Assembly: GCA_003194445.1 (NCBI GenBank)
Contig: PQXF01000014.1
Location: 36,108-72,683, forward strand
DNA from: Candidatus Methanogaster sp.
GTDB taxonomy: Archaea > Halobacteriota > Methanosarcinia > Methanosarcinales > Methanogasteraceae
DNA: 36,576 nucleotides
Direction of reading: 5' to 3'
Positions within the stretch are counted from its first letter, which is position 1, and each line of letters opens with the position of its first letter. A program made the position numbers and the translations under genes. Positions 5,017-25,386 of this stretch are shown here, piece by piece. Under the pieces are notes generated by a model. That model worked only from the letters and a program-made list of their open reading frames with translations, had not been told where the DNA came from and did not search any database.

Positions 5017-5071
5017 AACGCACAATACCGTACTCACAGGTCTGTTGTGTGGCATCGACACAGGAATTATT

Positions 5072-5620
5072 ATGAGGGATGGAATCGCCCATATATCCAT
5101 GAAAGCCGATGCCACAAAAGATGATTTGATGAAGCTCATCAATCAGAATAAAGAGGTCATACAATTCATCGCTTTGTTCATCATTTTCTGCATCGTTTTG
5201 TACCTCCCGTATTACTATTTTATGGATCGTTTCGCCTTCCTCGAAAACATCACCGCATCTATTCTTGGATTCTTGCTCCGCATATTCGGTATGAATATCC
5301 TCGTAGATGGAAACAACGTAACCATCGTTGGCCATATTATATTCAATATCATTGATGAGTGCACCGCCATGTTCGGATCGATCGTATACATCTCCTGCGT
5401 ATTGGCATACCCTGCCGACATCCGGAAGAAAGCTATAGGAATCGTTCTCGGTATTCCGTGCCTGTATGCGATCAATATGGTGCGGCTTATCATCCTCGCT
5501 TTTGTTAAGGTATTATATCCGGGGATATTTGAGTTTGTGCACACATATCTGTGGCAGACGATCTTCATCATATTCGTGATCCTCATCTGGCTGATCTGGG
5601 TGGACAAGGTGGTTAAATGA
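5072..5620 (+). CDS. Archaeosortase/exosortase family protein, ArtB-like
   Basis: This predicted polytopic membrane transpeptidase processes C-terminal sorting signals. It has several hydrophobic helices and the three hallmark residues of the family: Cys in DECTA (Cys97 from this start), Arg in NMVRL (Arg138) and His in VHTYLWQ (His157). The start at 5072 is chosen because AGGAA lies just upstream; 5045 and 5099 are alternatives. The VPxxxP-CTERM proteins at 3868 and 11044 are the natural substrates, which points to archaeosortase B. The family call is firm and the B subtype is inference from substrates. The next gene overlaps it by 4 bp (ATGA), so the two are co-translated. Confidence 0.85.
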   Translation: MRDGIAHISMKADATKDDLMKLINQNKEVIQFIALFIIFCIVLYLPYYYFMDRFAFLENITASILGFLLRIFGMNILVDGNNVTIVGHIIFNIIDECTAMFGSIVYISCVLAYPADIRKKAIGIVLGIPCLYAINMVRLIILAFVKVLYPGIFEFVHTYLWQTIFIIFVILIWLIWVDKVVK

Positions 5621-7844: not shown

Positions 7845-10409
7845 ATGAACCTGAATAATACAATGTTTACACTCATGCTGATAGTTATAGTTTGCGGCAC
7901 GGCGAGCGCGGCACAAATAAATGTCAATCAGACTGGCTGGTGGAATGAGGCTGGCGATACAACATTTCATGAAATAAGTCCCGGTCAAATACAAGCGGCT
8001 GTAGATCACGCAAACGCGGGAGATACGATTCATGTATATGGCGGCAATTACACAGAGAATGTGGACGTAGATATAAAGCTCACTCTGATTGGAGCTGGTG
8101 CTGATGTGGTGACCGTGACTGCTAGAGCGACAGACGATAGTATATTTGATGTAGGGGCTGATTATATAAACCTCAGTGGATTTGCGGTGACCGGTGCTAC
8201 CGGAGCAGTCGGAATTCGCCTTCCTGATGTGAATCACTGCGATATTTCCGGTAACAACGTCTCGAACAACGATTATGGTATCTACCTGCTTGCTTCGAAC
8301 AACAACGTGCTGACATGCAACATGGCATCGAACAATACTCATGGTGTCTGGTTGTGCGATGCAGACAATAACACGCTTGCGGGCAATATAGCGTCGGACA
8401 ATGAAAACGGCATCCGGTTATACGATGCAGGCAACAACACGCTTACGGACAACACGGCATCGAACAATACCTACGGCATCTGGTTGTGCGATGCAAGCAA
8501 CAACACGCTTACGGACAATACCGGACTGAACAACACAGAGGGCATATACCTATCTTCTTCGGATGATAACGACCTCATGGACAACACTGTAATGGGCAAC
8601 AACTATGGTATCCATCTGTATTCTTCGGGCAACAACACATTGCAGGACAATGATGCGGTTTCAAACGACGGGTACGGCGTCTATCTGAATTCGTCGAGCA
8701 ACAACACGCTTACGAGCAACACTGCAACGGATAACTGGTACGGCATCAACCTGTGCCATTTGAGCAACGAAAACACATTGGTAAACAACATAGTCTCTAA
8801 CAACGGCTATGGTATCTGGCTGGAATATTCGAGCAACGATAACGAACTTCTGGACAACACCGCAACTGGCAACTACTATGGTATGTATCTGGATTCTTCA
8901 GATGATAATATACTTGTGGACAACACCCTCTCGAACAATGAGCATGGCATTGACCTGCACCACTTGAGCAACACTACATTACAGAACAACAATGCATCCG
9001 ATAACAACGGATACGGCATATACCTGGATTCTTCGGATGACAATAAGCTCATAAGCAATGGTGCATCACGCAACAACTACGGCATATACCTGGATTCTTC
9101 GGGTGAGAATATACTTATGAACAATACCCTCGTGGACAACGAGTATGGTATTAACCTGTACCACTTGAGTAACAATAACAACCTTACGGACAACACCGCA
9201 ACGGACAACTACTACGGCATATACCTGGATTCTTCGGATGACAACAAGCTCATAAGCAGTGGTGCATCACGCAACAACTACGGCATATATCTGGATTCTT
9301 CGGATGGCACTGTACTTATGAACAGTATCATCATAGACAACAGCTACTGTGGCATCTATGGGAAATGGTTAGTTGACAACGATATTATGGGCAACATCGC
9401 AAACTCGAACGGTAAATATGGTATCCATCTATCGTCTTCGACTGGCAACAGACTCACGAACAACACCATGTCAGACAATGAATATGGCATCTGGTCTCAT
9501 TTATCAAGCTGCAATATACTGACAGATAACGCCATGTCAGCTAATGAATGCGGTATCTGGTTACATTCATCAACCGATAACAGACTCACGAATAACACCG
9601 CGTCGGCTAATGACTGTAATGGTATTGTGTTGTATGATTCGGCACGTAACCACCTTGTGAACAATACAGCATCAGATAACGACTACGGAATCCACCTCTC
9701 TTCTTCGACCAGCAACCGGCTCACCGGCAACATCGTGTCGGGCAATACCTATTATGGAATCCACCTCTCTTCTTCGACCAGCAACCGGCTCACCGGCAAT
9801 ATCGTGTCGGGTAATGGCTATGGAATATATATGCACAGCGCAGACGGCAACATCATCACGTACAACAGTGTGCGCAACAATGGACGGCAAGGATTCCACT
9901 TAACGGACGGGAGTGCGGGCAACACGATCGGATACAACGACATCGTATCAAACGGCATGCAGGTGGGTGTTGGCGAGTATCACTGGAATTTCTATAACAA
10001 CCAAACAGACGATGTGCAGGCGAAGAACAATTACTGGGGCGCGACTGACGACAGCATGATCGATGCCGGCATCTATGATGGCGATGCTGGTGAGGGGGAA
10101 GGAGAAGTAGGCGAAGTAGCGTTCCATCCATTTGCGACTGAGCCACACGTATACGAACCGATTCCGGAACTACCCGGCGATGTCAATTATGATGGAGAAC
10201 TCTCGGTTGCGGACGCGGTACTTGTTTTACAGATGGCTGCTGGCAACATCGATATCGACTATATTGCAGATATGAATTCGGACTGTGTAGTTACCTCGCT
10301 TGACGCGCTCATAATTATGCAAGCGTCGGCGGATGGGGTCGGTTCATCAGGTACTGCATCGTACACCGGTTTTCCATATCCAAAGGTTATTGGATCCGGC
10401 TCAAGGTGA
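7845..10409 (+). CDS. Secreted NosD-like parallel beta-helix protein with dockerin
   Basis: The 854-residue protein has a signal peptide (about 1-22, ending in CGTASA). Next comes an IQAAVDHANAGDTIHVYGG start typical of carbohydrate-binding/sugar-hydrolase (CASH) beta-helices. About 25 PbH1-type turns follow (GIYLDSSDDNxLxxN), as in the NosD family. Near residues 776-830 there is a dockerin-like pair of calcium loops (DVNYDGELSVAD and DMNSDCVVTSLD). The fold suggests polysaccharide or glycan binding outside the cell, and the dockerin implies docking to a cohesin such as those at 15338 and 19376. No C-terminal anchor is present in frame; a decayed sorting-signal remnant lies just downstream. 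An ATATATG start with GGAG 8 nt upstream supports this start. Confidence 0.9.
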   Translation: MNLNNTMFTLMLIVIVCGTASAAQINVNQTGWWNEAGDTTFHEISPGQIQAAVDHANAGDTIHVYGGNYTENVDVDIKLTLIGAGADVVTVTARATDDSIFDVGADYINLSGFAVTGATGAVGIRLPDVNHCDISGNNVSNNDYGIYLLASNNNVLTCNMASNNTHGVWLCDADNNTLAGNIASDNENGIRLYDAGNNTLTDNTASNNTYGIWLCDASNNTLTDNTGLNNTEGIYLSSSDDNDLMDNTVMGNNYGIHLYSSGNNTLQDNDAVSNDGYGVYLNSSSNNTLTSNTATDNWYGINLCHLSNENTLVNNIVSNNGYGIWLEYSSNDNELLDNTATGNYYGMYLDSSDDNILVDNTLSNNEHGIDLHHLSNTTLQNNNASDNNGYGIYLDSSDDNKLISNGASRNNYGIYLDSSGENILMNNTLVDNEYGINLYHLSNNNNLTDNTATDNYYGIYLDSSDDNKLISSGASRNNYGIYLDSSDGTVLMNSIIIDNSYCGIYGKWLVDNDIMGNIANSNGKYGIHLSSSTGNRLTNNTMSDNEYGIWSHLSSCNILTDNAMSANECGIWLHSSTDNRLTNNTASANDCNGIVLYDSARNHLVNNTASDNDYGIHLSSSTSNRLTGNIVSGNTYYGIHLSSSTSNRLTGNIVSGNGYGIYMHSADGNIITYNSVRNNGRQGFHLTDGSAGNTIGYNDIVSNGMQVGVGEYHWNFYNNQTDDVQAKNNYWGATDDSMIDAGIYDGDAGEGEGEVGEVAFHPFATEPHVYEPIPELPGDVNYDGELSVADAVLVLQMAAGNIDIDYIADMNSDCVVTSLDALIIMQASADGVGSSGTASYTGFPYPKVIGSGSR

Positions 10410-10656
10410 CTGGTGACTGGTGTCCTTGCGCGCCTGACCCCGCGAGAAAGCAGGTATCACTGACTGATGATCCGAAAGCGGTTGCAAGCGGATGGCGACA
10501 ACAGTTTAACTTTTCGGGTGTGACGATGGCAGGACTGTAACGTTCTGCGGCTGCCGCCAACCGGGGGTGCCAATTCTGATGCCAGCTGGGGTGTTTGTGC
10601 TCATCAGTATGTTGCGCATCATAGGTAGACAGGATCGTAAAAAAGGAAGGGGATCA
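10385..10656 (+). pseudogene. Decayed C-terminal fragment with VPxxxP-CTERM tail
   Basis: In a frame different from that of the preceding gene, codons from about 10385 read LKVTGDWCPCAPDPARKQ and continue to about 10520. After another frame change they read DGRTVTFCGCRQPG, then VPILMP (10567-10584), a hydrophobic stretch with ISMLRIIG, and the basic RQDRKKG. This tail closely parallels the sorting signal of the 11044 protein (VPLLTP). No start codon or single open frame connects the pieces. It may be the lost end of the NosD-like protein or of a deleted gene. Confidence 0.5.
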
Positions 10657-10687
10657 TGGAGTATAGTTATAACTTATGTAAGTATAA

Positions 10688-10740
10688 TTACAATGTGCTA
10701 TAGTTTTGGCGATTCCAAAGATCGACCGATACCTTTATAG
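10688..10740 (+). promoter_or_regulatory. Promoter of the 11044 gene, duplicated type
   Basis: A 27-bp upstream element (10688-10714, beginning TTACAATGTGC and ending GGCGATT) lies exactly 16 bp before ACCTTTATA (10731-10739). The same element, spacing and TATA core occur at 12335-12386 before the 12597 gene. A start near 10765 would leave a leader of about 280 nt. Confidence 0.65.
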
Positions 10741-10833
10741 TGTATGAAGTGGTGTATTATCGATACGCACAACAGAGTTTGACAAACTCGGTAGTACGTA
10801 TAATAGAGCGACCGTGGAGGTGCAAACAAAAAA

Positions 10834-10878
10834 ATGGTAAAATACACACGGAACTGTAAAATAATCATTACCACATGA
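10834..10878 (+). CDS. Upstream ORF (14 codons) in the leader of the 11044 gene
   Basis: MVKYTRNCKIIITT is preceded by a strong GGAGGTG 11 nt before its ATG. A similar 14-codon ORF (MKFTRTVKQTTNNT) with GGAGG upstream lies in the leader of the 12597 gene. The common ribosome site, equal length and shared K-(Y/F)-T-R-x-x-K suggest a translated leader peptide rather than chance. Confidence 0.45.
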   Translation: MVKYTRNCKIIITT

Positions 10879-10974
10879 TGCGTGGAGGCGCGTTGGTGTT
10901 TATGCCGCGTCTATGTGCGGTGGTGTTTTTCATATACATTCGATGTATGTGTGTATAGAAGTATGAACAGTATG

Positions 10975-11023
10975 CAGGTTGCAACAACCTGTATGCGCGC
11001 GGTGATGTGATAAAAACCGCGCG
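10975..11023 (+). promoter_or_regulatory. Two tandem hairpins before the ribosome site of the 11044 gene
   Basis: Hairpin 1 is CAGGTTG (10975-10981)/CAACCTG (10985-10991). Hairpin 2 is CGCGCGGT (10996-11003)/ACCGCGCG (11016-11023). AAAGGAGG follows within 20 nt, then the ATG at 11044. The leader at 12530-12571 has the same order of an AGGTT/AACCT hairpin and then a GCGCG/CGCGC hairpin. Confidence 0.55.
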
Positions 11024-11043
11024 ATAAGAAGAAAGGAGGCTAT

Positions 11044-12309
11044 ATGAATCTGAAAGAAATGGTAGTATTCATCGCAACAGTGACGATGTTTATGGTCATC
11101 TTCACATCGACTGCGGTGGCGATAGTCGTGGATGGTGATGGAAGCGATTGGGATCCATCTGACCAGCTGTGCGACGATCCTACTGGTGATACGTGCAGTA
11201 CCGGATATGACATAGAGTCGCTATGGACGTGTGTCGAAGGCAATACCGTGTACTTCCGGATAGATGTTCTTGAAGTGGCAGGCGATGCCGATAACGATGG
11301 CCATCCGGACACGCATACGCCAGGAATGAGTTGTAGTTGCGATTGGGATTATCCTGGTGTTGGCGTTGGTGCGACCTATGAGAAAGAACAGTACTATATC
11401 GGAATAGATGGTGATCACGATGGCACTATAGACTATAACCTCAAGTACTGTTCAGGCGATTCCTCTCTTCGGTACCCCAGCGAGGCGGTAATCCCTGCAG
11501 CGATCACTGATGCAAATCATAGTGGCAAGACTGTCGAGTTTAGCTTAGTGATTGATTCGTACCTCGATCCCACAGACTACTGCGTAACAGGAACTGCAGA
11601 TACGCATTGCAATGGAAATGAGGATGACACCAATCCGGAGTGCCGTATCGACGATGACCCTAATGCCGAATTCAGCTACACTGGTACTGGATGTAAGATA
11701 GTTACACTGGATGCATCAGCATCATGGGATTCGGAAGGGCCGATAGCCAGGTTTGAATGGGATCTTGATAACGATGGAGTCTACGAGGTAGATAATGGGG
11801 CTTCCCCCACATACGTAGCAGATGTTGCGACAACCGGTCTTCAGGTGGGTGCCAACACTATCAGACTCCGGGTGACCGACAGTATGGGGCAGACTGATTC
11901 GACAGATGTGCCACAGGTAATCGTGACTGGCGACCCGACTGCAGTCGCAAAGGCGAACGGACATACGGGGTCCATCCAGCTTCCGGTTGGAGGCATGGAC
12001 ATAACCTTCGATGGAACCGGATCATTTGCAGATTCGCCGGCTACCCTCGATCTTGGTAAGTGCCAGTGGATTATAGACGGTACGCTCTACGCAGGATTGG
12101 GGCCACACACGGTCTCCATAGATCATGCTACCCCGGCAAGTCTGAAAGTAGAAGACAACTACGGCTGCATAAGCTATGGTTATGTCACTATACGGGAACC
12201 ACCATCTGCGCCGGTACCACTCCTGACGCCAGCCGGAATACTTGCACTCATCGGTATGCTGTGCATAGTCGGCGCGGGCAGGGTCATTACGAAGGGTAGG
12301 AGGTTGTAA
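11044..12309 (+). CDS. Secreted PKD-domain protein with VPxxxP-CTERM signal
   Basis: The 421-residue product has a signal peptide (about 1-26). Asp-rich sequence follows, with calcium-loop-like stretches such as DADNDGHPDTH and DGDHDGTIDYN. Near 220-300 is a PKD-type Ig fold (LDASASWDSEGPIARFEWDLDNDG). The C-terminus has VPLLTP, a hydrophobic helix with ILALIGMLCIVGAG, and basic residues (TKGRRL). This is the VPXXXP-CTERM layout, so ArtB-type processing and surface anchoring are expected, probably by the enzyme at 5072. AAAGGAGG 8 nt before the ATG fixes the start. Many Cys residues suggest disulfides. The ligand is unknown. Confidence 0.88.
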   Translation: MNLKEMVVFIATVTMFMVIFTSTAVAIVVDGDGSDWDPSDQLCDDPTGDTCSTGYDIESLWTCVEGNTVYFRIDVLEVAGDADNDGHPDTHTPGMSCSCDWDYPGVGVGATYEKEQYYIGIDGDHDGTIDYNLKYCSGDSSLRYPSEAVIPAAITDANHSGKTVEFSLVIDSYLDPTDYCVTGTADTHCNGNEDDTNPECRIDDDPNAEFSYTGTGCKIVTLDASASWDSEGPIARFEWDLDNDGVYEVDNGASPTYVADVATTGLQVGANTIRLRVTDSMGQTDSTDVPQVIVTGDPTAVAKANGHTGSIQLPVGGMDITFDGTGSFADSPATLDLGKCQWIIDGTLYAGLGPHTVSIDHATPASLKVEDNYGCISYGYVTIREPPSAPVPLLTPAGILALIGMLCIVGAGRVITKGRRL

Positions 12310-12334
12310 ATCGCCATGAATTATGCAGACATAG

Positions 12335-12388
12335 TTACAATCTGCCATAATTTTAACGATTATGCAGACAGCACGATACCTTTATATA
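12335..12388 (+). promoter_or_regulatory. Promoter of the 12597 gene, duplicated type
   Basis: The element at 12335-12361 (TTACAATCTGCC... to AACGATT) matches 10688-10714 at most positions. It has the same 16-bp gap to ACCTTTATA (12378-12386). It begins 26 bp after the stop of the 11044 gene, so the 12597 gene has its own promoter. Confidence 0.65.
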
Positions 12389-12484
12389 AGATGGAGTAAC
12401 TGAATGACAGTAATGCTTCTCGGTTTGTTCGAGCCCGGGAGCATACACAAGAATACAAAATGGAGGTTATGGACGAAAAACCCC

Positions 12485-12529
12485 ATGAAATTCACGCGAA
12501 CCGTGAAACAAACAACGAACAACACGTAA
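12485..12529 (+). CDS. Upstream ORF (14 codons) in the leader of the 12597 gene
   Basis: MKFTRTVKQTTNNT parallels the 14-codon ORF at 10834. GGAGG lies 18 nt upstream. An overlapping 23-codon ORF from 12469 is an alternative, but its ATG is only 2 nt from GGAGG. The ORF ends at the foot of the first leader hairpin. Confidence 0.4.
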   Translation: MKFTRTVKQTTNNT

Positions 12530-12571
12530 ACAGGTTGTAAAAAACCTGTGATTTGCGCGAGTAATTCGCGC
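12530..12571 (+). promoter_or_regulatory. Two tandem hairpins before the 12597 gene
   Basis: ACAGGTT (12530-12536)/AACCTGT (12543-12549) is followed by GCGCGA (12555-12560)/TCGCGC (12566-12571). AAAGGAG and the ATG at 12597 come next. The architecture matches 10975-11023 although loops and spacers differ, which suggests that the pairing is conserved. Confidence 0.55.
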
Positions 12572-12596
12572 ATAACACACAAAGGAGAATACGAAC

Positions 12597-15260
12597 ATGA
12601 ATACGAAGAAAACGGCAATAACCATTGTATTAGCTATAATGGCTGTTGCTATGATAACGACTGTCGCAATGGCTACAAATTGCTTTGAGCCATGCGGCAC
12701 AAAAATCGAGCAGTGCACCAATGATGCACCGACAAAGGACGCGGTATATGCGCTTGTGATTCCAGGAGTCACCGGAGCCACATCAGCAAATGCCGCAGTT
12801 CCTGCAATGGCATTTGCATTTGCTGATGGTAACGGGAACGGTGTATTCGAACTAGGCGAATGTGCATACGTCGATACAAACGCTGCTGTAGGTCCCGCTT
12901 GGGTTGAACAAGGAGATATTCGACTATGCGGTCACTGCGGCAATGATCCAAATACACCAGTACTGGTGTGTGATCCACTCGAAATGGGTAACGCGCTTGT
13001 ATATCCTAACAACTTTGGCGTCCAGAACATAGTAGGGTATTACGACATTAATGCCAATGGCTACTATGACATAGCCGACCCACTATATCTAGATGTTTCA
13101 GCGGTTACAGTTGCACCCGGTGCCCCATCCGGTATTAGTGTTGTGTCGGTTGGAGATATAAGGCTATCCGCTAGCGCTTATGGCGCTGCATACAGTTTCG
13201 TGAACGCGTCAGACCTGGATACGCTCTTTGGTGGTTTCCAGCTGTTTGATCCTGCACCAGCAGTCCCCGGTGCGCAAACTCCGTTAGTCAATGACTTCAA
13301 CGACTTCCTTGGCTTCGTTGATACGGCTTGCGACAATGAATGGGACGTAAAGGGCGCGGATAAACTCTACCTGCAACAAATAGTTATAGGCGAGCCTGCA
13401 AATGCACCACTCCCACTTGTTCAGAATACACTCTATGCATTCGAGGGATTTGTGACAATAGGCGACTTCAGGCTGTACATGCCGCTAAATGAGCCATGCT
13501 GGCCTGACTGCGGAACAAAGGTCGAACAGTGCAACGGTGATGCGGTGTACCCGCTTCTGATACCGGGCGTAGACGTACCACTGACTGGAGTAGCAAATCC
13601 ACTCATGCGGTTGAGATGGGTTGATGCAACGCCCGGCGGTCCATTCGATCCTGCGTTCGACGATGTATACATAGAGACAAACCCACTCAGCGCTAACCCT
13701 AACCGGGTTGAGGTTGGTGACGTTCGATTGACCTCTGTGTGCGGATGCGATCCGAACACATTGGTTGGTCAATGCAGCCTGTGTGACGTCAATGCGCAGT
13801 ATGCACCTCTGGTAGTAGCGGATCAACTTATATTAGGATACGTCGATGCGAACGGCAACAACAGATATGATCTGGATGACCCACTATATCTGGACACAAG
13901 CACACTTGGTGTTGGCGCTGTAGGCGCTGGCGTTGTGTCGATCAATGATATAAGGCTGACAGCCAGATATTCTTATGACAACTACTCCATTGTTGCGGGT
14001 GGTGACGACGACCTATTAGGGGATAGAACTCTTCGAGATATCGCTACAGTAGGTCATCCACAAATACCATCGGTTGATCCGATAAACAGCTATCTGGGAT
14101 TCGTGGACTCAGGCTGTGATGGTGAATGGGATCCGCTGGGTGCAGACAAACTCTATCTGCAACAGGTGGTCTTCACACTCGTCGGCGCTCCTGGTGCTCC
14201 TGCTATGAATCAGCTTGACAGGTTTGCATCGATCGGTGACTTCAGACTGTACATGCCGATAGATGAGCAGTGCTGGCCTGACTGCGGTACAAAGGTAGTC
14301 GAGTGTGATGTGGATGCGGTCTATGGACTCCTGCTTGGTGCCGGTCATCTACCAGCTCCAGTCCCTGGTGGAGTGATCAATGGAGCAGTCCCTGCAATGA
14401 ACATCGTGAGAACGTCGCGTGGTTGCTACTATGTCAACGTATACAATCATCCAGCAGGCGCTCCAGTTGGTCCTGGTGCGGTGCGATTGTGCGACTGCTG
14501 CGATACCGAGAGCAACACCGTGGTGAAAGACTGTGACGACGACGCCAATGATCCGATTATCCTAATCCCACAGACTATAGTGGGATATGTCGATGTGAAC
14601 AGCAACGGCTTGTATGATCTTGGCGACCCGCTGTATCTGGATACGGGCAGAACCGGTGTGTTTGATACCAACGCCGTATCGGATGGCGACGTGCGACTGA
14701 CTCCAAGAGATGTTCAGGGACATCATTATAAAGCATACTCCATTGTTGATGCCGCTGATTGGGATGCCGGACATGGTAGTGGCGTCGGCGATATACTATA
14801 CTCTCCAAAGCGTGGCGGAGCTGTTCTAGCGAACACAGTGCCCAATGTAAACTGGTATCTCGGATTCATCGATTCCAACTGCGATGGCATGTGGGATGTT
14901 AATGGTGAGGACGAGCTGTATCTGCAGCAGATGGTGCCAGCACCCGCATGGATTGCGTTCAACGAGCCACAGTTCAACTTGTTCTCGACGATTGGAGATG
15001 ACAGGCTGTACATGCCACCAAGCACAACACCTGTGTGTCCGCAACTCGAGGGCGATGTCAACAACGATGGTAACATCGATGGTGCGGATGCACTACTGAT
15101 TGCTCGGCACATCGTTGGACTAACAACATTGACTGGTAACGATTACGATGCAGCAGACGTCAATGATGATGGTAACATCGATGGCGCAGATGCATTGTTG
15201 ATCGCTCGGTACATTGTAGGACTCATAACGACCTTCCCAGGTGGAGTCTGTATCCCGTGA
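12597..15260 (+). CDS. Secreted three-module Cys-rich protein with C-terminal dockerin
   Basis: The 887-residue protein has a signal peptide (about 1-25). Three homologous modules follow, near 29-300, 301-558 and 559-816. Each opens with a Cys cluster (C-x-x-C-G-T-K-x-x-x-C), contains VGYVDxNGNxxYDxxDPLYLD and closes with IGDxRLYMP. The module is not one I recognise; its Asp/Asn-rich motif may bind calcium. Residues about 819-884 form a textbook type I dockerin with two loops (DVNNDGNIDGAD and DVNDDGNIDGAD), each followed by ALLIAR(H/Y)IVG. The protein should therefore dock onto a cohesin, and the cohesin gene follows directly. There is no transmembrane anchor. Its own promoter and structured leader lie upstream. 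Confidence 0.92.
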   Translation: MNTKKTAITIVLAIMAVAMITTVAMATNCFEPCGTKIEQCTNDAPTKDAVYALVIPGVTGATSANAAVPAMAFAFADGNGNGVFELGECAYVDTNAAVGPAWVEQGDIRLCGHCGNDPNTPVLVCDPLEMGNALVYPNNFGVQNIVGYYDINANGYYDIADPLYLDVSAVTVAPGAPSGISVVSVGDIRLSASAYGAAYSFVNASDLDTLFGGFQLFDPAPAVPGAQTPLVNDFNDFLGFVDTACDNEWDVKGADKLYLQQIVIGEPANAPLPLVQNTLYAFEGFVTIGDFRLYMPLNEPCWPDCGTKVEQCNGDAVYPLLIPGVDVPLTGVANPLMRLRWVDATPGGPFDPAFDDVYIETNPLSANPNRVEVGDVRLTSVCGCDPNTLVGQCSLCDVNAQYAPLVVADQLILGYVDANGNNRYDLDDPLYLDTSTLGVGAVGAGVVSINDIRLTARYSYDNYSIVAGGDDDLLGDRTLRDIATVGHPQIPSVDPINSYLGFVDSGCDGEWDPLGADKLYLQQVVFTLVGAPGAPAMNQLDRFASIGDFRLYMPIDEQCWPDCGTKVVECDVDAVYGLLLGAGHLPAPVPGGVINGAVPAMNIVRTSRGCYYVNVYNHPAGAPVGPGAVRLCDCCDTESNTVVKDCDDDANDPIILIPQTIVGYVDVNSNGLYDLGDPLYLDTGRTGVFDTNAVSDGDVRLTPRDVQGHHYKAYSIVDAADWDAGHGSGVGDILYSPKRGGAVLANTVPNVNWYLGFIDSNCDGMWDVNGEDELYLQQMVPAPAWIAFNEPQFNLFSTIGDDRLYMPPSTTPVCPQLEGDVNNDGNIDGADALLIARHIVGLTTLTGNDYDAADVNDDGNIDGADALLIARYIVGLITTFPGGVCIP

Positions 15261-15300
15261 TATCGCAAGATATCACCCCCTTTCTTTTTTATTGAAAGGG
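15257..15300 (+). terminator. Two hairpins between dockerin and cohesin genes
   Basis: GTGATATC-GCAA-GATATCAC (15257-15276) is an 8-bp stem with a GNRA tetraloop that contains the stop codon. It is followed by CCCTTTC (15278-15284)/GAAAGGG (15294-15300) with T-rich sequence in the loop. This could terminate, process or stabilise the mRNA between the two genes. Confidence 0.45.
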
Positions 15301-15337
15301 TGGGATACAAAATATAACCCACAGGAGTGATGAACAC

Positions 15338-17017
15338 ATGAAAATGACAACAACAATGGTTGTGTGCTTAATAGCATTGGCAGTGTTTGGCATGGTCCTA
15401 CCGGCTGGGGCAGCTACTTCAGCATCGATCGGATCTGCAACGAGCAGCACATGCGACACTGTCGCTATAACGATAGACACTGATGAGACTGCAGGCATAG
15501 GGTCTGCAACGTTCACAGTGGTCTATGATACGTCAAAGGTTAGCCTGAACAGTGTGTCAAGTGGTGCTCTTGGTACAGTTACATGGGCTGATGCCAGTGG
15601 AACCGTTACGATGACGGCTACAGACGCGCTAACCTGCCCGACAGGCAACGGTATAACATTTGCAGACCTTGAGTTCTGTCCTGTGACCGGAGCATCTGGT
15701 TGCAGCGACCTGAATCTTGAGGTAACATCGCTCTATGACTGCGATGTCAGCTCGATCACACCGGATTCTGTCAACGATGGGCAGTTCTGCATAAGCGGAG
15801 GAGGCCCTGCCGCTACCACAGTATCGATCGGATCTGCAACGAGCAGCACATGCGACACTGTCGCTATAACGATAGACACTGATGAGACTGCAGGCATAGG
15901 GTCTGCAACGTTCACAGTGGTCTATGATACGTCAAAGGTTAGCCTGAACAGTGTGTCAAGTGGTGCTCTTGGTACAGTTACATGGGCTGATGCCAGTGGA
16001 ACCGTTACGATGACGGCTACAGACGCGCTAACCTGCCCGACAGGCAACGGTATAACATTTGCAGACCTTGAGTTCTGTCCTGTGACCGGAGCATCTGGTT
16101 GCAGCGACCTGAATCTTGAGGTAACATCGCTCTATGACTGCGATGTCAGCTCGATCACACCGGATTCTGTCAACGATGGGCAGTTCTGCATTGGGGCGCC
16201 AAACGACCCCCCAACCGTAACCGTCACATACCCCACCAGTGGTACAGTTAAAGGTCCGATAGACGTGACCGCAACTGCGACAGACACCGATGGAACAGTG
16301 ACGCAGGTAGCGTTCTATCTGATGCCAGCAGGAACCCTGATCAACACACCAGATACCAATGGCGCTGACGGGTGGAGTGTCTCTCTTGACACGACCACTG
16401 CCGCCGACGGAGATTACCAGATCAAGGCAGTGGCAACAGATGACGGCGGTGCGACAGACGATGACACCGGCGGCGTGTTCGAAATCGACAACTCGTGTCC
16501 ATGCGACTTCTGCTACGACCTCGTAGCCGGATTGAACTTTGTCTCAATCCCGAAGACGCTTGACAGTCCGAAGGACACAACGACGGTATTTGACGTAGAC
16601 TACTACTCTGGTGAGTTCTGTCTCTACTATGACGCATCGGCAGGATCATTTTATCTTAATGCAGATGTAAAGCCGTGCCGAGGTTACTTGGTGTACAAGA
16701 ACGCCGCAAAGACGGTATGCGTGGACTTTGATGATGCTGCACCTGCCCCATCTCAGCAACTCTATGAGGGCTGGAACATGATCGGTCACATAAAGACGGT
16801 AGCGATGCCAATCAACGACGGCACCACTGCAGACTTCGTATCGATCACCGGTCTCGAAGAGCCTGAGGGCTATGAACTGTTCAGACTGATGGCTACATAC
16901 ACAGCAGGCACAGGATGGTCCGAGTACCCATCTGGCAGTCTTACAGAGGCGACTCCAGGTACAGGATACTGGATCTACATGGACCAGGGCGCCACGATGT
17001 CCGGAGGCTTTGAATAA
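15338..17017 (+). CDS. Scaffoldin-like protein with two identical cohesin domains
   Basis: The 559-residue protein has a signal peptide (1-25). Two cohesin domains (about 28-152 and 161-285) carry the family pattern: IGSATSSTCDTVAITID, GIGSATFTVVYDTSKVSLNSV, GALGTVTW and ITFADLEF. They come from a 369-bp stretch that is identical in both copies. An Ig-like domain follows (about 290-385, VTVTYPTSGTVKGPIDVTA). The C-terminal region (395-559, Cys-rich, with LVAGLNFVSIP and EGWNMIGHI) resembles the end of the 20137 protein. Cohesins bind dockerins through calcium-dependent contacts, so this is the likely scaffold for the dockerin proteins at 7845 and 12597. No anchor is visible, so attachment to the cell may go through another partner. 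AGGAGTG lies before the ATG. Confidence 0.9.
   Translation: MKMTTTMVVCLIALAVFGMVLPAGAATSASIGSATSSTCDTVAITIDTDETAGIGSATFTVVYDTSKVSLNSVSSGALGTVTWADASGTVTMTATDALTCPTGNGITFADLEFCPVTGASGCSDLNLEVTSLYDCDVSSITPDSVNDGQFCISGGGPAATTVSIGSATSSTCDTVAITIDTDETAGIGSATFTVVYDTSKVSLNSVSSGALGTVTWADASGTVTMTATDALTCPTGNGITFADLEFCPVTGASGCSDLNLEVTSLYDCDVSSITPDSVNDGQFCIGAPNDPPTVTVTYPTSGTVKGPIDVTATATDTDGTVTQVAFYLMPAGTLINTPDTNGADGWSVSLDTTTAADGDYQIKAVATDDGGATDDDTGGVFEIDNSCPCDFCYDLVAGLNFVSIPKTLDSPKDTTTVFDVDYYSGEFCLYYDASAGSFYLNADVKPCRGYLVYKNAAKTVCVDFDDAAPAPSQQLYEGWNMIGHIKTVAMPINDGTTADFVSITGLEEPEGYELFRLMATYTAGTGWSEYPSGSLTEATPGTGYWIYMDQGATMSGGFE
15424..15792 (+). repeat. 369-bp exact direct repeat, copy 1 (cohesin)
   Basis: The sequence is identical to 15823-16191 (offset 399 bp) by direct reading. 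It encodes a whole cohesin domain. Identity at third codon positions implies recent duplication or ongoing gene conversion. Confidence 0.9.
15823..16191 (+). repeat. 369-bp exact direct repeat, copy 2 (cohesin)
   Basis: This is the second copy of 15424-15792, separated from it by a 30-bp linker that codes for about 10 residues. Confidence 0.9.
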
Positions 17018-17030
17018 GAAAGTGAATAGA

Positions 17031-17070
17031 GAAAGGATTTATCCTTTCTTTATTTTTTTATTTTATATTT
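17031..17070 (+). terminator. Hairpin and T-rich tract after the cohesin gene
   Basis: GAAAGGAT (17031-17038), a TT loop and ATCCTTTC (17041-17048) are followed by about 20 nt of nearly all T. The end of the tract (TTTTATATTT) could also act as a TATA box for the gene at 17095. Confidence 0.65.
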
Positions 17071-17094
17071 ACCAATCATCGGGTGGTAATAATT

Positions 17095-17760
17095 ATGAAG
17101 AAAATCAGAAGCAAAATAGCAAGATCTATCAGGATATTGATCATCTTTTCGACTCTTCTGGCACTATCCGGAATGGCGGCAATCGTGTCGGCGGATGAGG
17201 AGATGCCGATAGTAAATATATTCTACGGAAATGTAGCGGTTGATGGCGACTATGTTGACTCCGGAACGATCAGAACTTACATCAATGGAGAATTCAGCGA
17301 GAGTTCTGAGATTGTGAATGGTTACTACTATATGGGTGTTGAAGGCAGCACATCAGATGATGTTATAACCTTCGAAATAAACGGCGATACGGCAGATCAA
17401 ACTGTTACATGGAAGGCAAGCACTCAATCGCAAGCACTCAATCTACGTATAGGCGATCAGCCTGCGGGGGATCCGCCTGCTCAACCATCCACTGGTGACA
17501 ACACACCGAACGGAGGCAAAACTTCAGGTGGGTATGTATCGCCCGCAGCAACGCCAACCGGAACGGATGCGCAGCCAGTATCCGGAGAGATAGTAACATC
17601 TGATCTATCAGCGGCATCGGCAGAATCTACGGCATCGGCAGAAACTTCGACAAAAAAACTTGCCGAAAAGCCGGAGACGAAAGGATTACTTCCAGGGTTT
17701 GAAGCGCTGTTTGCGATTGCCGGGTTGCTTGCAGTTGCGTATCTGATCAGGAGGAGATGA
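17095..17760 (+). CDS. PGF-CTERM surface protein
   Basis: The 221-residue protein has a signal peptide (ending MAAIVSA). A small beta domain (about 31-120, EEMPIVNIFYGNVAVDG) is shared with the N-terminus of the next protein. A low-complexity Ser/Thr/Ala/Pro linker follows. It ends in LLPGFEALFAIAGLLAVAYL with RRR, a canonical PGF-CTERM signal. Such proteins are processed by archaeosortase A and lipid-anchored; ArtA is not in the window. The ATG at 17095 is chosen with GGTGG upstream; a GTG at 17083 is possible. The linker is likely O-glycosylated (inference). It may be a cell-surface anchor for the neighbouring cohesin/dockerin proteins. Confidence 0.9.
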   Translation: MKKIRSKIARSIRILIIFSTLLALSGMAAIVSADEEMPIVNIFYGNVAVDGDYVDSGTIRTYINGEFSESSEIVNGYYYMGVEGSTSDDVITFEINGDTADQTVTWKASTQSQALNLRIGDQPAGDPPAQPSTGDNTPNGGKTSGGYVSPAATPTGTDAQPVSGEIVTSDLSAASAESTASAETSTKKLAEKPETKGLLPGFEALFAIAGLLAVAYLIRRR

Positions 17761-17841
17761 TGGTTATTGGATTTCGAAAATGCCAAGTTCACTAATCAAA
17801 CGTAAGACTTATATGGATAATAACACAGGAGGTAAATGTAC

Positions 17842-19308
17842 ATGAACAATAATATGAAGATGGGGTTGTTCAAGGTGATAACCCTTTTCTCGATCCTTAT
17901 AGCGCTGTCCGGAATGGCAGCAATCGCGTCTGCGGATGAGGAGATGCCGATAGTAAATATATTCCGTGGCAATGTGACACTCAATGGCGCGGACGCGCCT
18001 CTCGAAACCGTCGTCAACGCCTACATCGATGAAGAGCTCCGCGGGAGTCATACGATTGAGAGCGGTGGCAAATACTACATAGCTGTTGTGGGCAATGGGT
18101 CGGTGGATGGCGACAAGGTTATAACTTTCACAGTATGCGGTGCTGCCGCAGATCAGAGTGATATTGAATGGCATGCAAGCTATCAATCACGACTGCTCGA
18201 TCTCACCGCAGTGGACGATGAAGCCCCGGCGGTCACGAACGCGACCGCAACCCTCTCCTCGATCGTTGCGGATGGGGTAGAGACGACCAAACTGAACGTG
18301 ACGGTCATCGACGGGTGCGGAGTTGGCACCGTCACCGTGGATCTGTCCGATATCGGCGGATCAGCCGTGCAGACGATGACTCGCATCGAAGGTACCGATG
18401 TGTATTCGGCGACAGTGACTGCGGATGCGAACACTGCGCCCGGGGCGTACTGCTTGTATGTCAATGCGAGCGATGTGTTCGGGAACTGTAATACGAGTGT
18501 TTGCATCGATCTGGTGATAAAGGATGTAGAAGCGCCAGTCGTTTCGAACCCGGATGCGGACCCTGAATCGATCGTTGCCGACGGGACTGAGACATCTCAG
18601 CTGAGTGTGACGGTCGTGGATGACAGTGACATCGATTTCGTTACTGTGGATCTGTCCGATATCGGCGGAGATGCAGCGCAGGAGATGAGTCGCATCGGTG
18701 ATACCGATGTGTATTCTGTGACAGTGACTGTGGATGCGAACACTCTGCCCGGGGCGTACTGCTTGTACGTCAATGCGAGCGATGTGTTCGGGAACTATGA
18801 GGATGGTGTTTGCATCGATCTGGAGATAGAGGATGTAGAAGCGCCAGTCGTTTCGAACCCGGATGCGGACCCTGCATCGATCGTTGCCGACGGGACTGAG
18901 ACATCTCAGCTGAGTGTGACGGTCGTGGATGACAGTGACATCGATTTCGTTACCGTGGATCTGTCCGCAATCGGCGGATCAGCCGTGCAGGTGATTGAGT
19001 CCAGCGGCGGTGATACGTACTCTACGGATACCAACGCTTCTGTAGACACTCTGCCAGGAACGTACTGCTTGCAGGTCAATGCGAGCGATGTGTTTGGGAA
19101 CTATGACGACACGAGTGTTTGCATTGGGTTGGAGGTGACGGAAGCACCAACATCCGAATATGATTCCGCAGACACCAACCAGGACTGCGTTGTGAGCATG
19201 CCAGAACTGATGACACAGATCGGTAAATGGAAGCTTCAAGAGATTGGAATGCCAGAACTGATGACTTCTATTGGCAGATGGAAATTGGGGTCTGGAGGAT
19301 ACTGTTGA
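17842..19308 (+). CDS. Secreted Ig-repeat protein with EF-hand (dockerin-like) C-terminus
   Basis: The 488-residue protein has a signal peptide and N-terminal domain (about 1-122) that are paralogous to the 17095 protein. Three Ig-like repeats of about 103 residues follow (APVVSNPDADPxSIVADGTE ... YCLYVNASDVFGN). Repeats 2 and 3 are nearly identical in DNA over about 130 bp. The C-terminal 50 residues hold one good EF-hand loop (DTNQDCVVSMPE) and a second half-repeat (GMPELMTSIGRWK) that lacks the Asp ligands. This resembles a degenerate dockerin and is identical to the tail of the 19376 protein. The start at 17842 is favoured by GGAGGT 8 nt upstream over an ATG at 17836. Confidence 0.85.
   Translation: MNNNMKMGLFKVITLFSILIALSGMAAIASADEEMPIVNIFRGNVTLNGADAPLETVVNAYIDEELRGSHTIESGGKYYIAVVGNGSVDGDKVITFTVCGAAADQSDIEWHASYQSRLLDLTAVDDEAPAVTNATATLSSIVADGVETTKLNVTVIDGCGVGTVTVDLSDIGGSAVQTMTRIEGTDVYSATVTADANTAPGAYCLYVNASDVFGNCNTSVCIDLVIKDVEAPVVSNPDADPESIVADGTETSQLSVTVVDDSDIDFVTVDLSDIGGDAAQEMSRIGDTDVYSVTVTVDANTLPGAYCLYVNASDVFGNYEDGVCIDLEIEDVEAPVVSNPDADPASIVADGTETSQLSVTVVDDSDIDFVTVDLSAIGGSAVQVIESSGGDTYSTDTNASVDTLPGTYCLQVNASDVFGNYDDTSVCIGLEVTEAPTSEYDSADTNQDCVVSMPELMTQIGKWKLQEIGMPELMTSIGRWKLGSGGYC
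19156..19306 (+). repeat. 151-bp exact repeat, copy 1 (EF-hand tail)
   Basis: The sequence is identical to 19964-20114 (offset 808 bp). It encodes the C-terminal EF-hand cassette of the 17842 protein, and the identity ends inside the stop codon (TGA against TAA). Confidence 0.9.
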
Positions 19309-19375
19309 TGAAGCTACTTACCACATTATCCTCTGTTCTTATTTCCGAAAATGATGTATTATGGAGGGAAAGACT

Positions 19376-20116
19376 ATGAAGACACCATATATTTTAGTAC
19401 TAACTACGATGATGCTATTTGGCATACCGGCATTAGCATCTGCAGCGACGGTGAGTGTAGGAGATCCGACAACAAATGGCTCTATTGTATCGGTACCGAT
19501 AAACGTGTCTGGGGCCCCGGACATAGGGGCAATGACTATCACACTCACCTACAATTCCAGCGTTATCAGCGCTACTAATGTTTCCAAGGGATCGGTAACT
19601 TTTGATGCACTCCTCGTTGCCGAGGACACCATAATAGACAATCCACCTCTTGGATCGTATGAGAATGATACTATCAGTGATGCTGACAATGACACAGTAT
19701 GGAATCATGGTGCCATAATCGGCAATACTACTGATGGCATGGTAAACATCAGCATGATAAGTACGGATGGCTTCCGCGACGATGGTACGCTTACAGTCAT
19801 AACCTTTGATATAGTTGGCAGTGGGACCACTCCGCTGAACCTGAGTGATGTTTCGGCAAACGAAACTGCAACATGCGATCCATGCACGAATGAGACGGTT
19901 TTTGATCCGGCTTCATATCCAGCGATACCGATAACCCGGGTGAACAGTTCGTATACTAGCGAAGAATATGATTCCGCAGACACCAACCAGGACTGCGTTG
20001 TGAGCATGCCAGAACTGATGACACAGATCGGTAAATGGAAGCTTCAAGAGATTGGAATGCCAGAACTGATGACTTCTATTGGCAGATGGAAATTGGGGTC
20101 TGGAGGATACTGTTAA
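19376..20116 (+). CDS. Secreted cohesin protein with EF-hand (dockerin-like) tail
   Basis: The 246-residue protein has a signal peptide (about 1-22). One cohesin-like domain (about 23-190) shows VSVGDPTTNGSIVSVPINVSG, IGAMTITLTYNSSVIS and DGTLTVITFDIVG. The final 50 residues are the same DTNQDCVVSMPEL cassette as in the 17842 protein. Combining a cohesin with a dockerin-like module on one chain would allow it to act as an adaptor between scaffold and cargo (inference). The ATG at 19376 follows GGAGGG by about 8 nt; 19361 is an upstream alternative. Confidence 0.87.
   Translation: MKTPYILVLTTMMLFGIPALASAATVSVGDPTTNGSIVSVPINVSGAPDIGAMTITLTYNSSVISATNVSKGSVTFDALLVAEDTIIDNPPLGSYENDTISDADNDTVWNHGAIIGNTTDGMVNISMISTDGFRDDGTLTVITFDIVGSGTTPLNLSDVSANETATCDPCTNETVFDPASYPAIPITRVNSSYTSEEYDSADTNQDCVVSMPELMTQIGKWKLQEIGMPELMTSIGRWKLGSGGYC
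19964..20114 (+). repeat. 151-bp exact repeat, copy 2 (EF-hand tail)
   Basis: This is the second copy of 19156-19306, at the 3' end of the cohesin gene. The cassette boundaries coincide with a module boundary, as in domain shuffling. Confidence 0.9.
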
Positions 20117-20136: not shown

Positions 20137-23004
20137 ATGAAGAAAACATTTATCTTCGGAATGGTGCTGATTGTGATGATGATTTGTGTATCATCTGCAG
20201 CAGCACAGGATACTGTTACCAGAGATCTACCGGACAGCGCAGATGCCGATACGACGATTACAGTCAATTTGGCTGTTGATGTTGAGACGACTGCGGGTAG
20301 TCTTCTCATAGATGAAGTGGTGCCATCCGGTTGGACTGTTGTCAGTGCAACAAACGACGGTGATTACGCAACCCTTGCTGGACATATATACTGGACGAAA
20401 CTCAGCAGTGTTACGGATGCAACATATTCGTACACCATACAGATTCCAGCAGATGCATCTGGCACGCATATGTTTGGCGGCACGTACATGTTTGACACGA
20501 TGGCAGCAGACGCAATCATTCATGGCGATACCGAGATTACGGTCGGCACCGAGCTACCTACGCCTGAACTTACATCCTGCGTCATAGACCCAACTTCACC
20601 GGTCGTGCAGGGCACCAACATAACGGTTGACTGTCTGTTCTCGGAGAAGGTAACGTATGAAATCCGTATCGAGAATGCCACGGGATACCTGGTCGAAGAG
20701 CTTGGTAGCGGCACTGCAAAGGATCCACAGAAGAAGTGGTGGAACACAACCACTGAAACCCCGGTTGGAATCTATACCGTGAACGTGACCATGGACAACT
20801 CCACATCAGGAATGTCATCGTATAACAACACGAACACGATTGAGGTCACTCCTGCAGGGGATCCCACACCGCCAGTCATCACCGATGTTACATGTGACAC
20901 GCCAACAACCGACTCGGTAAACATCACATGGACTACGGATGAGGGCAGTGACAGTCTTGTCAAGTATGGCACAGTGTCCGGAACTTACACGGTTGAGGTA
21001 TCTGATGCCACTATGACAACATCGCACAGCATCATGCTGACCGGACTTGATGCAGATACGGACTACTACTTCGTTGTGAACAGCACGGATGCGAGTGACA
21101 ATTCGGCTGAGAGTGTAGAATCCAGTTTCAAGACTGCAATAGTTGTTGCAGTACAGGATACTGTTACCAGAGATCTACCGGACAGCGCAGATGCCGATAC
21201 GACGATTACAGTCAATTTGGCTGTTGATGTTGAGACGACTGCGGGTAGTCTTCTCATAGATGAAGTGGTGCCATCCGGTTGGACTGTTGTCAGTGCAACA
21301 AACGACGGTGATTACGCAACCCTTGCTGGACATATATACTGGACGAAACTCAGCAGTGTTACGGATGCAACATATTCGTACACCATACAGATTCCAGCAG
21401 ATGCATCTGGCACGCATATGTTTGGCGGCACGTACATGTTTGACACGATGGCAGCAGACGCAATCATTCATGGCGATACCGAGATTACGGTCGGCACCGA
21501 GCTACCTACGCCTGAACTTACATCCTGCGTCATAGACCCAACTTCACCGGTCGTGCAGGGCACCAACATAACGGTTGACTGTCTGTTCTCGGAGAAGGTA
21601 ACGTATGAAATCCGTATCGAGAATGCCACGGGATACCTGGTCGAAGAGCTTGGTAGCGGCACTGCAAAGGATCCACAGAAGAAGTGGTGGAACACAACCA
21701 CTGAAACCCCGGTTGGAATCTATACCGTGAACGTGACCATGGACAACTCCACATCAGGAATGTCATCGTATAACAACACGAACACGATTGAGGTCACTGC
21801 TGAAGGCGTCATGACCACGTACTACGGCGATGCTGACGGAGATGGTTACGGCGATCCAGAAAACACCACAGAGGCATACTCTGCACCGACTGGCTACGTC
21901 ACAGACAACACAGACTGCGATGACACCAACGCGGATGTCAATCCGGGAGCAACAGAAGTCTGCGGCAACGGAATCGATGACAACTGTGATGGACAGATCG
22001 ATGAAGGCTGCACCCTAACAACGTACTACGGCGATGCTGACGGAGATGGTTACGGCGATCCGACAAACACCACAGAGGCATACTCTGCACCAGCGGGCTA
22101 TGTTGCGGACAACACGGACTGTGATGACACCAACGCGGCTGTAAATCCGGGAGCAACAGAAGTCTGCAACGGTATCGATGACAACTGTGATGGGCAGGTC
22201 GATGAAGGCGTCATGACCACGTACTACGGCGATGCTGATGGTGATGGTTACGGCGATCCGACAAACACCACAGATGCATGTTCTGCACCAGATGGCTACG
22301 TCACAGACAACACAGACTGCGATGACACCAACGCGGATGTCAATCCGGGAGCAACAGAAGTCCGAAATGGCATCGATGACAACTGTGATGGACAGATCGA
22401 CGAAGGCTGCCCAATCATCTGGTCTGCAACATTGTCTCCGAATGTTATCCAATCTGATGGAACCGACAGCACCACTCTGACGGTTTTGGCAAGCGACGAT
22501 GTTGGCATTGCAAGCGTTATTGTGAACCTGTCAGCGATTGGCGGACCGGATAAGCAAACACTGACTCAGCAGGGTGAGATAGTGGCGAACGTCGGCACAT
22601 GGACAACAACCATCAACACCACTCGTGCTGGAACGTTTGAGTTACCAGTCACTGCTATAGATGACGATGATAGTTCGGCTACAACATACGTCACATTGAC
22701 AGCAGGTCCTAACACGTACACTCTCTCTCTCAAGCAGGGATGGAATGTGATCTCACTGCCTTACAATGTTACCGCAGTTGGGATCGATACCACCCAGAAA
22801 CTTGGTGACCTGATCATCGGTGCTGGAGAGGATTGTTACTATGTAGCATGGTTCAATGCAACATCGCAGACGATGGTGTCTGATATCATTATCCCACCAG
22901 AAGGTGTGCCGCAGGACACCACCTATCCAATCATGGGAGGGCTGGGATACTTTGTGTTTGTAGAGGGCGATTTGGACGTTGTCGTGGCTGGAACGCCATG
23001 GTGA
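20137..23004 (+). CDS. Large secreted repeat protein with Fn3 and MopE-like metal-binding repeats
   Basis: The 955-residue protein has a signal peptide (ending SSAAA). A domain of about 215 residues (DTVTRDLPDSADADTTITVN...) is encoded twice by identical 646-bp DNA. A fibronectin type III domain lies between the copies (about 245-332, VITDVTCDTPTTDSVNITW). Three Asp-rich repeats run from about residue 559 to 755 (YYGDADGDGYGDP ... DCDDTN ... NPGATEVC ... GIDDNCDGQIDEG). They match the putative metal-binding motif named after copper-binding MopE; copy 3 has Arg in place of the first Cys. An Ig-like domain and a C-terminal domain (LKQGWNVISLPYN) similar to the end of the 15338 protein complete it. 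AGGAGG precedes the ATG. Confidence 0.88.
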   Translation: MKKTFIFGMVLIVMMICVSSAAAQDTVTRDLPDSADADTTITVNLAVDVETTAGSLLIDEVVPSGWTVVSATNDGDYATLAGHIYWTKLSSVTDATYSYTIQIPADASGTHMFGGTYMFDTMAADAIIHGDTEITVGTELPTPELTSCVIDPTSPVVQGTNITVDCLFSEKVTYEIRIENATGYLVEELGSGTAKDPQKKWWNTTTETPVGIYTVNVTMDNSTSGMSSYNNTNTIEVTPAGDPTPPVITDVTCDTPTTDSVNITWTTDEGSDSLVKYGTVSGTYTVEVSDATMTTSHSIMLTGLDADTDYYFVVNSTDASDNSAESVESSFKTAIVVAVQDTVTRDLPDSADADTTITVNLAVDVETTAGSLLIDEVVPSGWTVVSATNDGDYATLAGHIYWTKLSSVTDATYSYTIQIPADASGTHMFGGTYMFDTMAADAIIHGDTEITVGTELPTPELTSCVIDPTSPVVQGTNITVDCLFSEKVTYEIRIENATGYLVEELGSGTAKDPQKKWWNTTTETPVGIYTVNVTMDNSTSGMSSYNNTNTIEVTAEGVMTTYYGDADGDGYGDPENTTEAYSAPTGYVTDNTDCDDTNADVNPGATEVCGNGIDDNCDGQIDEGCTLTTYYGDADGDGYGDPTNTTEAYSAPAGYVADNTDCDDTNAAVNPGATEVCNGIDDNCDGQVDEGVMTTYYGDADGDGYGDPTNTTDACSAPDGYVTDNTDCDDTNADVNPGATEVRNGIDDNCDGQIDEGCPIIWSATLSPNVIQSDGTDSTTLTVLASDDVGIASVIVNLSAIGGPDKQTLTQQGEIVANVGTWTTTINTTRAGTFELPVTAIDDDDSSATTYVTLTAGPNTYTLSLKQGWNVISLPYNVTAVGIDTTQKLGDLIIGAGEDCYYVAWFNATSQTMVSDIIIPPEGVPQDTTYPIMGGLGYFVFVEGDLDVVVAGTPW
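20205..20850 (+). repeat. 646-bp exact direct repeat, copy 1
   Basis: The sequence reads identical to 21153-21798 (offset 948 bp), with no difference seen at synonymous sites. It encodes about 215 residues. Confidence 0.88.
21153..21798 (+). repeat. 646-bp exact direct repeat, copy 2
   Basis: This is the second copy of 20205-20850. The copies diverge abruptly at both ends, as in a recent tandem duplication interrupted by the Fn3 segment. Confidence 0.88.
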
Positions 23005-23014
23005 GGTGATACAG

Positions 23015-23707
23015 ATGAAAAGTATATCAGTAACTGTGAGCATTCTTATACTCACAGTTTTTTTATCGCTATCCGCACCTGCATACGCTGGGACTGCTAA
23101 CCCTTATCCGGTCTATGGCTATGTGAACTACACTGATGGCACGCCTGCAGATGGTGAATTGGTCACGATCTACAAAGCCGGAGATCCTTCAAACAAGATC
23201 ACAGCCGTGGTAGGATCAAGTTATGGTGTTCCTGGATGGTGGAAGGCTGATCTGTACAACATACCCGTAGATGTGGGCAATGACACTATCGTAGTCCATG
23301 TCCGCGATAAGTCTATAACATTTGTTGTTAACACTGCCACAAGTACGGGAGGTCAGTGGGTTTCTGACGTAATATCGGTAACCAAAAATGGCGGCGACGG
23401 CAGCAGAAGCGGCGGCAGCAGCGGCGGCAGCGGCACATACCCACCAGGATGGAATGAGGATGCACCGACATCGACAGCAACTCCGGCACCGACTACAGCA
23501 GCAACTTCGGAACCGACCGTGGCACCGACTGAGGCGCCAACTTCGGCATCAGATGGGGCACCAACTGAAGCCCTGACCGAGGCACCCACAGAAACCCCAA
23601 TCACAAAGGTGAAGACCAAACCCACTCCCGGGTTCGGAGCAATGTCAACGGTGTTTGTGATCGCTGGACTGCTTGCTACCTATCTGATAATGCGGCGCAG
23701 AGAGTAA
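23015..23707 (+). CDS. PGF-CTERM surface protein
   Basis: The 230-residue protein has a signal peptide (MKSISVTVSILILTVFLSLS...). A transthyretin-like beta domain follows (about 26-115, YPVYGYVNYTDGTPADGELVTIYK). A Gly/Ser then Pro/Thr/Ala/Glu stalk (about 120-200) comes next, and then TPGFGAMSTVFVIAGLLATY with RRRE, a PGF-CTERM signal. Archaeosortase A would be the processing enzyme. GGTGAGGTGAT precedes the ATG at 23015, 10 bp after the previous stop, so it is co-transcribed with the 20137 gene. It could anchor the assembly to the cell. Confidence 0.9.
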   Translation: MKSISVTVSILILTVFLSLSAPAYAGTANPYPVYGYVNYTDGTPADGELVTIYKAGDPSNKITAVVGSSYGVPGWWKADLYNIPVDVGNDTIVVHVRDKSITFVVNTATSTGGQWVSDVISVTKNGGDGSRSGGSSGGSGTYPPGWNEDAPTSTATPAPTTAATSEPTVAPTEAPTSASDGAPTEALTEAPTETPITKVKTKPTPGFGAMSTVFVIAGLLATYLIMRRRE

Positions 23708-25377: not shown

Positions 25378-25386
25378 GGCACCAAC

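Follow-up and report, generated by a model that had tools for sequence, protein, structure and literature searches.

Introduction

Cohesin and dockerin form a plug-and-socket pair whose modularity few other protein pairs match. The closest described systems come from ANME and Methanosarcinales archaea, for which the relevant sections of two studies report proteins in which a dockerin is accompanied by as many as five cohesins, and put forward the idea of a surface scaffold (Chadwick 2022, PMC9012536; Timmers 2017, PMC5244752); the first of these accounts leaves open what is joined by the archaeal versions. As presented there, these systems resemble the locus analysed here in their secreted cohesin and dockerin proteins, in scaffoldin-like proteins that combine a dockerin with several cohesins, in their S-layer links and in having no clear link to cellulose. 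The view of a first-pass annotation of this DNA, that a complete system of this layout was undescribed, was therefore too strong.

Here we analyse a window of 36,576 nucleotides (the whole stretch of DNA under study), which is part of a 72.7-kb contig in the 3.6-Mb, 92%-complete genome of Candidatus Methanogaster sp. The genome belongs to the Methanosarcinales, the order of Methanosarcina, Methanohalophilus, Methanococcoides and Methanosalsum, and is probably of an ANME-2 lineage. Genes are named by their first position in the window. Cohesins and dockerins are encoded there beside a tail with a single calcium loop and a domain, hereafter X, that we consider candidate partners.

Results

Cohesins, dockerins and anchors of the locus

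Domain calls were judged against the curated Pfam cut-offs (cohesin PF00963, 24.1 bits; Dockerin_1 PF00404, 22.9 bits; PGF-CTERM PF18204, 18.8 bits). All of the genes previously noted as encoding cohesins or dockerins scored above them in searches with PF00963 and PF00404: the cohesin profile matched two stretches of 15338 (39.2 bits) and one of 19376, and two-calcium-loop dockerins were found in 12597 and in the tail of 7845 (Table 1). Signal peptides had been proposed for these four proteins and for 17842, and N-terminal signal-like segments are indeed visible by eye in all five. Of two proposed PGF-CTERM anchors, that of 17095 was significant, but that of 23015, although visible, was sub-threshold (10.8 bits). 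An exosortase-family gene, absent from the first-pass annotation, lies upstream at 5045, close to the PGF signal of 17095, consistent with archaeosortase-dependent anchoring. The locus also extends beyond the end first assigned to it, to ~23.7 kb, taking in 20137 with its two X domains, a gene missed at first, and then 23015. A contig scan found no relatives of 19376 in viral contigs.

Table 1. Positions of the genes and domains of the locus within the window.
Feature	Position	Strand	Evidence
Exosortase/archaeosortase-family membrane protein; candidate CTERM-anchor processor (putative role)	5045..5620	+	PF09721, 41.2 bits
Secreted NosD/beta-helix protein, C-terminal dockerin of cargo class	7845..10409	+	Pfam; dockerin-class comparison
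Dockerin of 7845	10176..10322	+	Dockerin_1, 25.1 bits (cut-off 22.9)
Cassette 1 gene A: three repeats of an uncharacterised Cys-/Asp-rich module, C-terminal scaffoldin-class dockerin	12597..15260	+	
Dockerin of 12597	15051..15209	+	45.8 bits; PDB dockerin matches
Cassette 1 gene B: two cohesins, Ig-like domain, C-terminal WN module	15338..17017	+	
Cohesin 1 of 15338	15422..15787	+	Pfam
Cohesin 2 of 15338	15818..16186	+	Pfam
Cassette 1 gene C: small secreted protein, PGF-CTERM anchor	17095..17760	+	PF18204, 39.2 bits
Cassette 2: Ig-repeat protein with single-loop tail	17842..19308	+	
Single-loop tail of 17842	19156..19305	+	
Cassette 2: cohesin and single-loop tail; candidate adaptor between two docking systems	19376..20116	+	
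Cohesin of 19376	19448..19873	+	34.0 bits
Single-loop tail of 19376	19964..20113	+	
Cassette 2 gene B: two X domains, MopE-type metal-binding repeats, C-terminal WN module	20137..23004	+	
X domain 1, candidate tail receptor, cohesin-like predicted fold	20212..20544	+	
X domain 2	21160..21492	+	
Cassette 2 gene C: small secreted protein, PGF-CTERM-like C-terminus	23015..23707	+	Sub-threshold in Pfam, though motif and C-terminal helix can be seen

The two cohesins of 15338 are near-identical (99-100% over 300 nt, at a spacing of 399 nt), as are the X domains of 20137 (100% over 300 nt, spacing 948 nt), and Methanohalophilus sp. RSK likewise has near-identical tandem cohesins in its B gene. The internal repeats of 15338 and 20137 probably reflect recent duplication or homogenisation. 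Elsewhere in the window, positions 2-931 hold a broken reverse transcriptase of the group II intron type, split over two frames; a similar fragment lies on contig C28, which also bears a gene for a cohesin with a PGF-CTERM. At 23817-24608 an acylphosphatase domain is joined to a run of some nine near-identical repeats of 30 nt, (ILPDIKESVS)n, and at 24700-26329 a gene for a DUF2162 predicted transporter adjoins MotA/ExbB-like and DUF2149 genes.

Cohesins and dockerins in the rest of the genome

A profile scan of the host genome returned 28 cohesin and 84 dockerin matches, and recovered the same cohesin and dockerin places in the window as the Pfam scan of the window proteins. Contig C81 bears a gene cluster for multi-cohesin proteins, among them a scaffoldin of 937 residues in which four cohesins are combined with a dockerin, and proteins that join a cohesin to a PGF-type C-terminus, that is, membrane-anchored cohesins, occur on contigs C81, C28 and C96, the same genome thus holding both kinds. 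The domains found in 43 scanned dockerin proteins were NosD/beta-helix (16), PKD (10), subtilase (3), S-layer (2) and glucoamylase (1). As the first-pass annotation had stated, there was no glycoside hydrolase among the window proteins scanned; with hydrolase cargo absent there and that single glucoamylase domain among the dockerin proteins, identity with a cellulosome was rejected.

Two classes of dockerin can be told apart in this genome, a 'TSLDALMILQ' type carried by most cargo proteins and an 'ADALYLAKH' type carried by scaffoldins and by 12597. The dockerin of 7845 is of the former, common cargo class, so the cohesins of the locus are not necessarily what it docks onto, and we set 7845 aside as a specific member of the local scaffold. 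An extracellular cohesin-dockerin scaffold, at the locus and genome-wide, is well supported at the level of sequence. The cohesin-dockerin part of the scaffold cluster proposed earlier is thus borne out by the profiles and by what the genome encodes elsewhere, but the inclusion of the EF-hand tail in that same system is not.

A tail with one calcium loop in the place of a dockerin

The proteins 17842 and 19376 share one C-terminal tail of ~50 residues, as had been noticed earlier, and the DNA encoding it is 99% identical over 157 nt. Its description as an EF-hand tail holds in so far as there is one canonical loop, DTNQDCVVSMPE, the second half keeping its helix but being loopless; it is not, however, a Pfam dockerin (no match at E up to 5), and comparative evidence suggests that it belongs to a second docking pair. 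With no Pfam match and one loop instead of two F-hand calcium loops, membership of Dockerin_1 was rejected. Profile comparison gave matches to EF-hand loops, with dockerins matched weakly. The predicted fold comprises one loop and two helices (pLDDT 91); a Foldseek search of the PDB with the 52-residue model gave no significant match and was uninformative.

The gene pair of Ig-repeat and cohesin proteins has a counterpart on contig C93 of this genome, where ordinary two-loop dockerins replace both tails. A similar pair in another genome (G028) ends in another single-loop tail, and the Methanosarcinaceae relatives of 12597 carry a single-loop tail where 12597 has its dockerin. Judged by these sequence comparisons, the tail is evolutionarily exchangeable with a dockerin at the same position of a protein.

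Such replacement in homologous proteins, the likeness of the single loop and helix to half a dockerin, and the wealth of cohesins in this genome might also mean that the tail is a degenerate dockerin which binds ordinary cohesins, the whole locus being one cohesin-dockerin system and X an unrelated structural domain. We consider this unlikely, though a contender to be taken seriously, since the neighbouring repeat protein in tailed A-B-C cassettes always has X and never cohesins, and since the survey of genomes described below also argues against it.

Two cassettes and a paired swap

The window holds one type of cassette twice, first as 12597 (dockerin), 15338 (two cohesins) and 17095, and then as 17842 and 19376 (tails), 20137 (two X) and 23015. 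The same gene order is found in Methanosarcinaceae, where gene A is a relative of 12597 with a tail, gene B has two to four X, usually with a WN module, and gene C, which follows, encodes a small membrane-anchored protein. Methanohalophilus has both versions: strain RSK (G084) carries a dockerin and two cohesins, whereas three genomes of the same genus (G009, G041 and G045) carry a tail and three X. Compared with G084, the body of A is 83% identical in G009 and 54-55% in G041 and G045, and across the three the end of B is 82-95% and C 83-88% identical. Because the tail of A and the repeats of B differ in kind and the rest is homologous, plug and socket appear to have been exchanged together. 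Among the A-B-C cassettes with both ends readable, none breaks the pairing of dockerin with cohesin and of tail with X.

At two Methanosalsum loci (L167 and L171, in G004 and G098) the tail of the A protein is without a calcium loop and the X of the next gene is strongly diverged; in another Methanosalsum (L192), tail and X are both typical.

Domain X may have a cohesin-like fold

X is a domain of ~115 residues, present in 20137 as two identical copies and predicted as a beta-sandwich at pLDDT 93. When the model was compared with the PDB, the cohesin of A. fulgidus (2xdh) was the third-best match (E 4.5e-5, TM 0.72, 12% identity) and a cohesin-like module of C. perfringens (2jh2) the sixth-best, with the adhesin domain CLIPPER and YcnI equally close. 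As a cohesin by sequence X was rejected, as it had no match to the Pfam cohesin profile and an hhalign probability of about 1%. The fold predicted for X may thus be cohesin-like, a likeness that does not imply homology to cohesin.

Tail and X across genomes

Among 150 genomes of the order, X was found in 18 of the 20 with a tail versus 46 of the 130 without (p=4e-6), and cohesins, which showed no excess, in 14 of 20 versus 83 of 130 (p=0.8), counts and p-values that are not phylogenetically independent because the sampled cassettes are related. Tails and X, with no cohesin match, are present in three genomes of 99% completeness (G041, G045 and G014). Both the missing tail-cohesin association and these three genomes speak against the tail being a degenerate dockerin. 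Tails with no X match were seen in G028 (56% complete), and in G084 tail genes remain elsewhere, the typical X being gone and one diverged X-like domain left.

Outside the order, genomes of two families carry tails on proteins unrelated to A, and in each the next gene has X. In G320 the tail gene is followed by a gene with two X; in G310 (L256, 4459-14466) six X lie in one membrane-helix protein adjoining a tail protein of 2310 residues, and a cohesin gene and a cohesin-dockerin gene lie beside these two. No X neighbour was found for distant relatives of the tail in G188, G241 and G440.

The distances among tails and among X correlate when A-body distance is controlled (partial r 0.75, p=2e-4, n=14 linked pairs), but since the correlation with tails at other loci is weak (r 0.38, p=0.06, n=7), we do not count it as proof of binding. 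Part of the co-variation may be linkage, because the tail, at the 3' end of A, and X, at the 5' end of B, are adjacent in the DNA; one contiguous segment replacement could swap the two, or let them co-diverge, without any binding. On such an account tail and X would be non-partners replaced as one DNA block, the tail serving as a calcium-binding stability or sorting signal and X as an adhesive beta-sandwich repeat. The contiguity of the tail end of A with the B repeats and the weak co-variation of unlinked tails agree with it, as do the distant tail relatives without an X neighbour and the retention of tails in G084 despite the loss of typical X. Nevertheless, we regard it as distinctly unlikely, given that tail and X are again neighbours in other families (G310, G320), where the tail proteins are unrelated, and that the exchanged blocks are matched pairs, dockerin with cohesin and tail with X.

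Discussion

The explanation that we prefer, if by a narrow balance of belief over doubt, is that the locus encodes a cell-surface assembly built from two parallel docking pairs, dockerin with cohesin and tail with X, with CTERM proteins as its membrane ends. We favour two pairs because they swap as matched pairs in Methanohalophilus and in the window, because the tail associates with X and not with cohesins across the 150 genomes, because tail and X neighbours recur outside the order on unrelated proteins, because the gene pair on C93 shows dockerins in the place of tails, and because cohesin (2xdh) and a cohesin-like module (2jh2) are among the best matches of the predicted fold of X, if no closer than CLIPPER and YcnI. 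In cassette 1, the dockerin of 12597 would dock onto the two cohesins of 15338, a known chemistry in a presumptive pairing. For cassette 2, we propose that the X domains of 20137, two in number, receive the tails of 17842 and 19376, each with its single calcium loop; as a protein with both a cohesin and a tail, 19376 may act as an adaptor through which dockerin proteins are coupled to the X scaffold. Attachment to the membrane would be through the small CTERM proteins 17095 and 23015, with an archaeosortase such as 5045 as their candidate processing enzyme.

More broadly, tail and X may be an undescribed, calcium-dependent docking pair, parallel to and evolutionarily exchangeable with dockerin and cohesin, through which methanogens (some without a recognised cohesin) and other archaeal families assemble surface proteins and which adaptors of the 19376 type bridge to the dockerin-cohesin pair; our belief in this proposal is evenly poised. 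Cassette 1 and the genome-wide cohesin-dockerin system are already known in kind, whereas the tail-X pair would be new; literature searches on dockerins with DUF11, on Methanohalophilus and on EF-hand surface proteins yielded no description of it. If true, it would be a second and possibly orthogonal coupling pair, and would show how scaffolds could be built in methanogens that lack recognised cohesins. The question can be tested in Methanohalophilus, which is culturable and in which the two versions occupy one and the same locus in closely related genomes.

It is very improbable indeed that the locus reflects published archaeal cohesin-dockerin adhesion systems only, its extra domains being ordinary adhesin modules with no docking role. 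Such systems are described for ANME in the sections cited (PMC9012536, PMC5244752) and DUF11/bMG10-like domains are common in surface proteins, but both the swap of matched pairs seen in Methanohalophilus and in the window and the co-occurrence of tail and X would be left unexplained. The same sections of these accounts of ANME and Methanosarcinales make no mention of the single-loop tail and X pair, of the A-B-C cassette or of the paired swap.

Among other known systems, the non-cellulosomal A. fulgidus cohesin 2xdh is a weak sequence match to the cohesin of 19376 and among the best structural matches of X; it differs from X in the low identity given above and in that X fails the cohesin profiles. 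The DUF11/bMG10/BatD Ig-like domains resemble X in that some X-bearing B proteins score above the Pfam cut-offs of these families; the families are broad and, to our knowledge, have not been described as receptors of EF-hand tails. With the bacterial cellulosome (type I/II) the archaeal system shares a plug-and-socket logic, separate scaffoldin and cargo dockerin classes and anchored cohesins. Unlike that of the cellulosome, however, the archaeal cargo is almost without glycoside hydrolases (one glucoamylase domain in 43 proteins), and anchoring is by PGF-CTERM.
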